Assembly (NCBI RefSeq): GCF_019636155.1
Contig: NZ_JAHBYB010000006.1
Location: 1 to 64,000 of the forward strand
Length of the DNA: 64,000 nucleotides
DNA from: Brevundimonas sp.
GTDB lineage: Bacteria; Pseudomonadota; Alphaproteobacteria; Caulobacterales; Caulobacteraceae
Direction of reading: 5' to 3'
Positions within the stretch are counted from its first letter, which is position 1. Every line of letters starts with the position of its first letter. The position numbers and the translations under genes are program-made. The notes under the pieces are model-generated. The model did no database searches. It saw only the letters and a program-made list of their open reading frames with translations, and was not told where the DNA came from. This document shows positions 39,349-40,809 of this stretch, in pieces.

Positions 39349-40809
39349 TCAGCCTTCCTCCGGACGGGCGCCCAGGGCCAGGACGGCGGCGCGGAAGGCC
39401 TCGCCCCGGGCCTCGAAGTCCGGATACTGGTCGAAACTGGCGGCGGCGGGACTGAGCAGGACCACCTCTTCGCGGCCGGTGGCGGCGGCGGCCTGGGCCG
39501 CGGCGCGGACGGCGGTCTCCATGTCGCCGCTGATGCGGTGCGGCGTGTCTCCCAGAGCCGCAGCGAACGGCCCGGCCGCCTCGCCGATCAGGAAAGCCTC
39601 GGTCACGCGCGGGAACAGATCGGACAGGTCGTCGATCCCGCCCGCCTTGGCGCGGCCGCCGGCGATCCAGAAGACGCGGTCGTAACTGGACAGGGCCTGG
39701 CGCGCGGCGTCGGCGTTGGTGGCCTTGGAATCGTTGACGAAGCGGACGCGGCCGAGGCGGCCGACCGGCTCCATGCGATGGGCGAGGCCGGGGAAACTGA
39801 GCAGGCCTTTCAGCGCCGTGGCGTGATCGACCCCCAGGGCGCGGGCGGCGGCATAGGCGAAGGCGGCGTTCTGGGCGTTGTGGCGGCCGGGCAGGGATCG
39901 GGCGGCGGAGAAATCGACGGATTCATCATCCACCGACAGGCGACCGGCCGACGCCCTGATCTGGGCCAGAGGCAGGTCGGCGGTCGAAACCATCCGCGCC
40001 CTGGCCCCCAGGGTTTCGGCGATCCCCAGGCCAGCCGCTTCGTCAACGCCGACGAGGGCGGTCGCCCATGGTTTAAGGTTCCGGAATATCCGCGCCTTGG
40101 CCGCGACATAGCCCTCCATGCCGCCATGACGGTCCAGATGGTCGGGGCTGATGTTGGTCAGGATCGCCACATCCGGCGCGAAGGTCGTGGTCAGGTCCAG
40201 CTGATAGCTGGACACCTCGATCACATAGATCGTGTGGGGAGCGCGGACCTCCAGGTCCGCCTCCGGAACGGCCCCCGCGCCGTCGGCGACATGCGGACCA
40301 GGAGGTCCGCGTTCCGGACGCGGAGTCAGGGCCGGCAGGGCCAGGACGCCGATGCCAATGTTGCCGCCGACATGAACCGTCAGCCCCGCCTGTTTCAGCA
40401 CCCAGCCGATCAGGGCGGTGGTGGTCGACTTGCCGTTGGTGCCGGTGATGGCGACCACGCGCGGCCGGCGGTCCTGCGGCAGGGCCGACAGGGCGCGGGC
40501 GAACAGTTCGATGTCGCCGATGACCTCCACCCCCGCGCTCCGGGCCTTATCGACGGTCCAGTGCGGCCTCGGATGGGTCAGGGGCGCGCCCGGCGACAGG
40601 ACCAGGGCGGCGAAGTCGGACCAGTCGGCGGCGGTCAGGTCCTGAACCGCGAACCCCTCGGCCTGGGCCTGCATGCGACTGGAGACGCTGTCGTCCCACA
40701 GCACCGGCTGGGCGCCGCCGGCCTGAAGCGCGCGCGCGGCGGTGATCCCCGACCGTCCCAGGCCGAAGACCGCGACGCGGCGACCCTGGAAGCCGGGGAC
40801 CGGGATCAT
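39349..40809 (-). CDS. murD: UDP-N-acetylmuramoylalanine--D-glutamate ligase with an internal repeat-encoded insertion
   Basis: A 486-residue Mur ligase, against about 440-460 for most relatives. The P-loop GTNGKST is at 123-129, GGNIGIGVL at 148-156, the VIEVSSYQL segment at 197-204 and [11 protein letters not shown] follows. Residues 162-192 have no counterpart in ordinary MurD and are encoded by a palindromic repeat (40234-40326) inserted in frame between the GGNIG and EVSSYQL motifs. Those motifs and the rest of the ligase are intact, and the gene is essential in its family, so the product is probably active. It starts inside the mraY stop (ATGA). Confidence 0.95.
40234..40326. repeat. 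REP/BIME-like palindromic repeat inside murD
   Basis: Two opposed palindromes, GCGGACCTCCAGGTCCGC (about 40243-40260) and GCGGACCAGGAGGTCCGC (about 40293-40310), lie in mirror orientation, each flanked by GGA-type borders, with a G/C-rich linker. The whole is 93 bases (31 codons) and keeps the murD frame open. Confidence 0.8.

Follow-up and report, generated by a model that had tools for sequence, protein, structure and literature searches.

The murD gene of this Brevundimonas genome carries, inserted in its reading frame, a 78-bp element that is very probably a non-autonomous, GGAG-headed REPIN-like dimer, mobilised in trans by a RAYT-like Y1 transposase of the IS200 type. The gene lies in a mur/fts cluster on the minus strand of the window (the whole 64,000-nt stretch of DNA that was analysed), and its product matches the MurD family model TIGR01087 at 343 bits (cut-off 212) as well as the Mur_ligase_M/C domains. 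The features referred to below are as follows:

39349–40809, minus strand: murD (UDP-N-acetylmuramoyl-L-alanine--D-glutamate ligase), 486 aa, intact (open reading frame and family models)
40354–40368, minus strand: GGNIG motif, residues 148–152, upstream of the insert (sequence)
40238–40315, minus strand: REPIN-like dimer, 78 bp, two inverted GGAG-headed palindromes plus a 32-nt spacer (covariance model)
40311–40315, minus strand: head of the first palindrome, GGAAC, where the family consensus has GGAGC (sequence against family consensus)
40293–40310, minus strand: first palindrome in coding order, GCGGACCTCCTGGTCCGC, 18 nt (sequence)
40261–40292, minus strand: spacer, 32 nt (alignment of family copies)
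40243–40260, minus strand: second palindrome, GCGGACCTGGAGGTCCGC, 18 nt, exactly the family consensus (sequence against consensus)
40238–40242, minus strand: head of the second palindrome, GCTCC on the coding strand and GGAGC on the plus strand (sequence against consensus)
40198–40218, minus strand: EVSSYQL motif, residues 198–204, downstream of the insert (sequence)

Read in the murD frame, the element encodes 26 residues. It consists of two near-perfect palindromes (GGAGC-GCGGACCTSSAGGTCCGC) that are inverted to each other, which bears out the two mirror-image palindromes (40243–40260 and 40293–40310, 18 nt each) noticed in the original prediction; the 93 bases that were given there as the extent of the element (40234–40326) are slightly too wide, as it spans 40238–40315 (78 nt) with the heads included. 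Against a covariance model built from 31 family copies, this one among them, it scores 67.7 bits (E = 1.5e-10). The spacer varies in sequence and length from copy to copy. A chance palindrome in GC-rich coding sequence might be invoked, given that the genome is GC-rich and that, with up to two mismatches allowed, a loose single-arm pattern matches at 16 further sites, against 38 for its reversed control. However, with up to three mismatches we counted five palindrome matches in the window, four of which were the two murD palindromes read on both strands, against an expected 0.65, and none of 100 shuffles reached five. The paired palindrome pattern occurred in 8 of 131 genomes of the genus, and its reversed control gave no match in any of the 131. 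Together with the dispersed homologous copies in relatives described below, the shuffles and the reversed-pattern control refute this reading, to which we assign practically no probability.

Comparison with other MurD proteins of the genus shows how much was added. We sought MurD in 131 genomes and fetched loci from 107 (24 genomes fall outside the sample); 106 were readable across the linker, L151 being the exception. The stretch from GGNIG through SSYQL measured exactly 29 aa in 103 of these 106 proteins and was longer in three, namely in our genome (57 aa), in G046 (54 aa), and in G102 (51 aa). The insert is absent from the 103 and the segment is not conserved; because these have a 29-aa linker, the alignment indicates that the inserted segment is neither ancestral nor conserved and that our gene had a net gain of 28 codons. 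As predicted, the insert sits between GGNIG and EVSSYQL, with 57 residues there versus 29 in insert-free relatives, and the open reading frame runs uninterrupted across it with the family models and motifs intact; GGNIG as well as E198 and S200–L204 of the EVSSYQL motif are invariant in an alignment of 57 rows. The in-frame nature of the addition thus stands, while its proposed size of 31 residues reduces to a net 28, and a MurD thought to be 30–45 residues longer than usual is rather 27 residues longer (486 versus 459 in the nearest insert-free relative). In the AlphaFold model, the insert position is a low-confidence coil.

The near-intact palindromes could suggest that the insert was domesticated. 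In the protein, it might serve regulation or interaction; in the mRNA, it might form a hairpin that adjusts the expression of murD, for instance by being targeted by a small RNA acting in trans. Both departures from the family consensus, G to A in the GGAAC head and A to T in the first palindrome, are silent in the murD frame, and the mRNA hairpin predicted at the insert is very stable (−56 kcal/mol, z = −5.35). There is also a precedent: palindromes in Wolbachia murD are discussed, in the available part of PMC5105140, as the target of a small RNA (WsnRNA-46), and by this analogy, drawn from the description of another palindrome inside an alphaproteobacterial murD, a regulatory role may be entertained. 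On the other hand, the segment is a low-confidence coil missing from 103 of 106 relatives, intact arms are equally expected of a recent insertion, and there is no second copy in the genome and hence no repeat-bearing partner RNA in sight. We therefore consider a domesticated function improbable, and a transposed REPIN-like dimer, for which no function of the 28 residues is required, the preferred reading.

The element belongs to a family that is dispersed among relatives. The covariance model retrieved 63 distinct copies (at least 122 matches) in 14 of the 131 genomes, numbers that are a lower bound. For this count, strands were merged by hand, stricter filters lose weak matches, the 31 model copies match by construction, and the pair that flanks a transposase gene in G113 (see below) was left out. 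Copies were most numerous in G081 (at least 21), followed by G046 (16), G082 (8), G089 (5), G003 (3), and G120 (2, one of which, at 28 nt, is a single collapsed palindrome and no dimer), with one copy each in our genome (G000) and in G056, G063, G083, G101, G102, G111, and G113. A DNA search with the element gave matches in 25 of 131 genomes, short weak ones included, and concurred with the paired pattern and the covariance model on the main carrier genomes. In our own genome, the pattern, DNA, and covariance-model searches found no copy besides the one in murD, which is also where the sole covariance-model copy of G102 lies. The expectation that copies should exist outside murD accordingly holds for the relatives, where 53 of 63 copies were not in a gene by our codon test, and fails for the genome in which it was raised. 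The idea of a repeat-derived in-frame insert is itself upheld by its absence from 103 of 106 MurD proteins, by the dispersal, mostly outside genes, in 14 of 131 genomes, and by the single case where copies flank a Y1 transposase gene.

Beyond the genus, scanning 84,980 species yielded at least 120 stretches with the paired pattern, Reyranella and other Rhodospirillales being frequent among the 80 matches listed; the shared pattern alone does not prove that these form one family. Some lay, partly clustered, in contigs labelled Planctomycetota, Flavobacteriales, Acidobacteria, and others (L234, L235, etc.), which points to either binning errors or a very wide spread. A sub-variant arm, GCGGACGTGGACGTCCGC, in L184, L185, L186, L188, L189, L361, L363, L365, and L049 keeps the palindrome through paired changes. 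The element had no match among phages and a single weak one among plasmids (a Tsukamurella plasmid, 78% over 67% of the query, E = 2e-3), and no MurD relative was confirmed in viral contigs.

A link between the family and a transposase is real, but was seen once. In G113 (contig C61), a 216-aa open frame with the Y1 transposase domain PF01797 (38.5 bits) lies between two inverted copies of the palindrome and runs into both of them, such that the C-terminal end of the protein is repeat-encoded. PF01797 occurred in 4 of the 131 genus genomes and in 5 of 14 control genomes, Caulobacter vibrioides included. Used as a query against the 131 genomes, the G113 protein matched nothing but the gene that encodes it and three distant relatives (33–38% identity). 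The cognate transposase was therefore found in just 1 of 131 genomes, with 13 of the 14 carrier genomes devoid of it; our genome had neither a PF01797 match nor a match to the G113 protein. Mobilisation in trans was not seen where copies are most numerous, because G046 (16 copies) and G081 (at least 21) lack the enzyme. We infer that an enzyme of the G113 type would transpose the element.

How the family should be classified depends on its head. REPs are defined by GT(A/G)G plus a palindrome (PMC3686654, in the part available), and a role of GTAG has been reported in vitro (PMC8266576, likewise in part). Here, the tetranucleotide is GGAG, with G, G, A, and G each present in at least 90% of the 31 copies, and the palindrome follows it directly (GCGGACCT..AGGTCCGC) with nearly invariant arms. 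The consensus GGAGCGCGGACCT also differs from CGTC REPs, which have a terminal CGTC or TGTC/CCTC and AT in the first two stem positions. Two close inverted palindromes able to form one hairpin, as in REPINs, are present; a Y1/HUH gene flanked by copies, as in RAYT-associated repeats, occurs in G113 only (1 of 131 genomes) and no such transposase was found in our genome; and, as in Rickettsia palindromic elements (RPEs), genic in-frame copies (10 of 63) accompany intergenic ones. Because the head is GGAG, not GTAG or CGTC, we file the family as REPIN-like and not as a strict REP: it works like a REPIN or RPE but is no textbook REP.

The comparison with known systems follows the same lines. With REPINs and BIMEs moved by RAYTs, the family shares short inverted palindromes, a conserved 5′ tetranucleotide, a variable spacer, a mostly extragenic location, and copies flanking a Y1 gene, whereas it differs from them in its GGAG (not GTAG/GTGG), in having from 1 to at least 21 copies per carrier, and in that 13 of 14 carriers lack the cognate transposase. 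As far as the available part of PMC3733652 (Di Nocera et al. 2013) extends, GTAG and CGTC REPs can lie within genes as dimers that encode 20–30 residues; the present family resembles these ORF-internal dimers in adding a similar segment and in targeting tRNA synthetase genes, and the same-site case there is recB, in which two Xanthomonas species carry the insert at roughly one position. It differs from them in tag and palindrome, in its targets (murD, glyS, carB, gltB, bchH), and in sharing sites with unrelated families. Likeness to the Rickettsia elements, as judged by description, lies in a palindromic repeat that codes in frame within housekeeping proteins; unlike RPE-4 and RPE-6 of Rickettsia conorii, which the same partial source places among CGTC REPs, in a group without a linked transposase, the present family is linked to a Y1 transposase. 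TIRYT elements, again by description and from that part of PMC3733652, are similar in having a Y1 transposase flanked by inverted repeats without a GTAG tag, some of them self-complementary and dispersed as dimers; part of their terminal repeats share GGGGWSAS and the others are mutually unrelated. In the literature searched, which was mostly open-access, we did not find the present insert described, nor anything that joins a REP-associated tyrosine transposase with Caulobacter or that concerns the peptide PAFAGM; PMC12306157 mentions neither Caulobacter nor Brevundimonas. The murD insert is thus a clear instance of a known phenomenon; it looks recent and bears a new tag.

To find copies within genes, we applied to all 63 a codon test that asks for an open, codon-like frame of at least 40 codons on both sides and that may miss copies close to a locus end. 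Ten were in frame inside genes: three in murD (G000, G046, G102), three in glyS (G113, G083, G081), two in carB (G003, G082), and one each in gltB (G081) and bchH (G046). Both carB genes, one glyS, gltB, and bchH were identified by family models, gltB at 1044.5 bits, just below the curated cut-off of 1047, with its ORF cut by the locus ends. The 20 in-gene arms encode ADLQVR, ADLEVR, ADVDVR, RGPPGP, GPGGPR, or close variants; the third possible frame, which would give RTSRS or RTWRS, is used by none of them. Such inserts had been predicted to be rare, which holds less now that the same family is found in frame in glyS, carB, gltB, and bchH of the genus, and REPs inside genes of free-living bacteria were already published in 2013 (PMC3733652).

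In murD, glyS, and carB, a single site each was used, so that 8 of the 10 in-gene copies lie at three sites occupied in more than one genome. For 10, 20, or 50 equal sites, the seven coincident pairs among the ten copies have P = 0.16, 0.015, and 0.0006, and at least five pairs have P = 0.44, 0.065, and 0.003, values that presuppose independent insertions and are a rough guide. In-gene copies made up 4 of 8 in single-copy genomes and 6 of 55 in multi-copy genomes (Fisher P = 0.017). With our own genome left out, as it was chosen for its insert, the comparison was 3 of 7 versus 6 of 55, and because P then rose to 0.056, a survivor bias toward in-gene copies is only suggestive.

The three murD inserts likely represent two or three independent insertions, as their carriers are scattered on a murD protein tree (106 rows, linker removed; a quick search with SH-aLRT support only). 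Our gene pairs with that of G076, which has no insert (support 97), G046 sits beside the insert-free G119, G081, and G130, and G102 lies elsewhere; branches with support of at least 95 force at least three changes, which may be gains or losses. The insert of G102 would be a separate element because it has a TTC/GAA variant in both arms; its left junction differs too. Those of our genome and G046 may have one origin because both are preceded by GCCCTGACT (9 nt), have the GGAAC head, and lie at the same 8-nt offset, which is why we count two or three events. No target-site duplication could be defined by eye from the empty murD alleles. In glyS, the flanks of each carrier are closer to those of several non-carrier alleles than to those of either fellow carrier. 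The three carriers are scattered on a tree of 30 glyS loci, but branches with support of at least 95 do not require more than one origin.

These data bear on two further explanations. A single ancestral insertion, inherited vertically and lost precisely in most lineages, would account for all three inserts lying in the same linker and frame and for the flank and head shared by our genome and G046, and the changes on the tree may be losses as well as gains. Yet the 103 insert-free linkers are all exactly 29 aa and without remnant, such that many exact excisions would be needed; the tree forces at least three changes; and the arm variant and left junction of G102 are different. We regard this history as highly unlikely. 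Somewhat less unlikely, though still doubtful, is that homologous recombination brought an insert-bearing murD segment into our lineage from a relative with the repeat, for example from the G046 lineage; this would fit a genome with one copy and no transposase and the flank and head common to both. Against it, the 60-nt flanks of our gene and G046 compare at 0.87/0.85, below several empty alleles (e.g., L142 at 0.90/0.95), and the spacers differ in length (32 versus 20 nt) and sequence. The DNA flanking the murD insert showed no shared tract among carriers and hence no sign of a recombination tract.

Unrelated repeats occupy some of the same loops. At the site in the GlyS beta subunit after HQKYFAV (L318–L347), two unrelated palindromic repeat families are found in different genomes: among 30 loci, eight had a different palindromic repeat (CTCCCCC..GGGGGAG type) and three the present family, the rest being short or unrelated. 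These loci are the best 30 of 123 genomes, and inserts are over-represented among them because the query contained the insert. Our own GlyS (L321, L410; G000:C37:69599-70273) has six residues more than empty alleles at this hot site, with no recognisable repeat. At the carB site, other long inserts occur in at least 12 genomes, ours included (within one set of 30 loci, only L368–L371, L374, and L394 were read there). Inverted DNA arms of 18–34 nt were found in 11 of 12 such inserts, and none of the 20 shuffles made for each of these gave arms as long; in the remaining one (L409), the best inverted repeat was 11 nt and no longer than in shuffles. At the position that the present palindrome occupies in G003 and G082, our own CarB (L398, G000:C14:9800-11200) has a different insert, PFPLDGGRVG...SSIEGEG, whose inverted arms measure 32 nt.

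A second MurD loop (residues ~274–290 of our protein, window ~39940–39990) has no repeat in our genome. In the 106 relatives, CGTC-like dimers were assigned in 13 and SP..GEG-type dimers or single units in 19, counts that rest on peptide patterns we set ourselves and on a CGTC-like label, may miss or over-call, and were read in DNA for five. It is filled in L116, L148, L137, L149, L045, and others, and G102 has both MurD sites filled. In G003 (L134), the murD frame ends early near this loop (312 aa) and the remainder is matched separately, which may reflect a sequencing error or a genuinely broken gene. A sequence-specific target is disfavoured as the sole reason for recurrence, given that unrelated repeats share the glyS and carB sites; at the first murD site, where only the present family was seen, it may still apply.

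Taken together, we envisage that a Y1 transposase supplied in trans moved the palindrome dimer into murD. The insertion would have been tolerated because none of the six frames of the arms contains a stop codon, because it added a net 84 nt (28 codons), and because it sits in a coil that separates the GGNIG segment from the EVSSYQL strand; the structural model suggests that the enzyme still folds. This site would be one of few permissive loops, with one each in GlyS and CarB plus the second MurD loop, which would be hit repeatedly by the present family or by unrelated palindromic repeats. That our genome offers no second copy as a source speaks against this origin. Transposase and intergenic copies may have been lost from it or never been there, and the murD copy, which stands alone for that reason, is probably a relic.

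MurD, an enzyme with many inhibitor-bound crystal structures, can accept a loop of 28 extra residues with no visible harm to its motifs. REPs within genes have been published before, listed gene by gene; the newer part is the recurrence in the same loops by unrelated families, the genus providing replicate natural experiments in which the same MurD, GlyS, or CarB loop was filled several times, by the present family and by others. On balance, we lean toward the view that only very few loops in essential enzymes of the genus tolerate insertions, that unrelated palindromes colonise these loops repeatedly and in independent lineages, that in-gene copies outlive the rest, and that the process would typically end in a solitary coding relic, from which new protein segments could arise. 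The repeated filling of the same loops makes it directly testable which loops of essential enzymes accept 20–50 extra residues, and whether it is the coding copies that survive once a repeat population has vanished.
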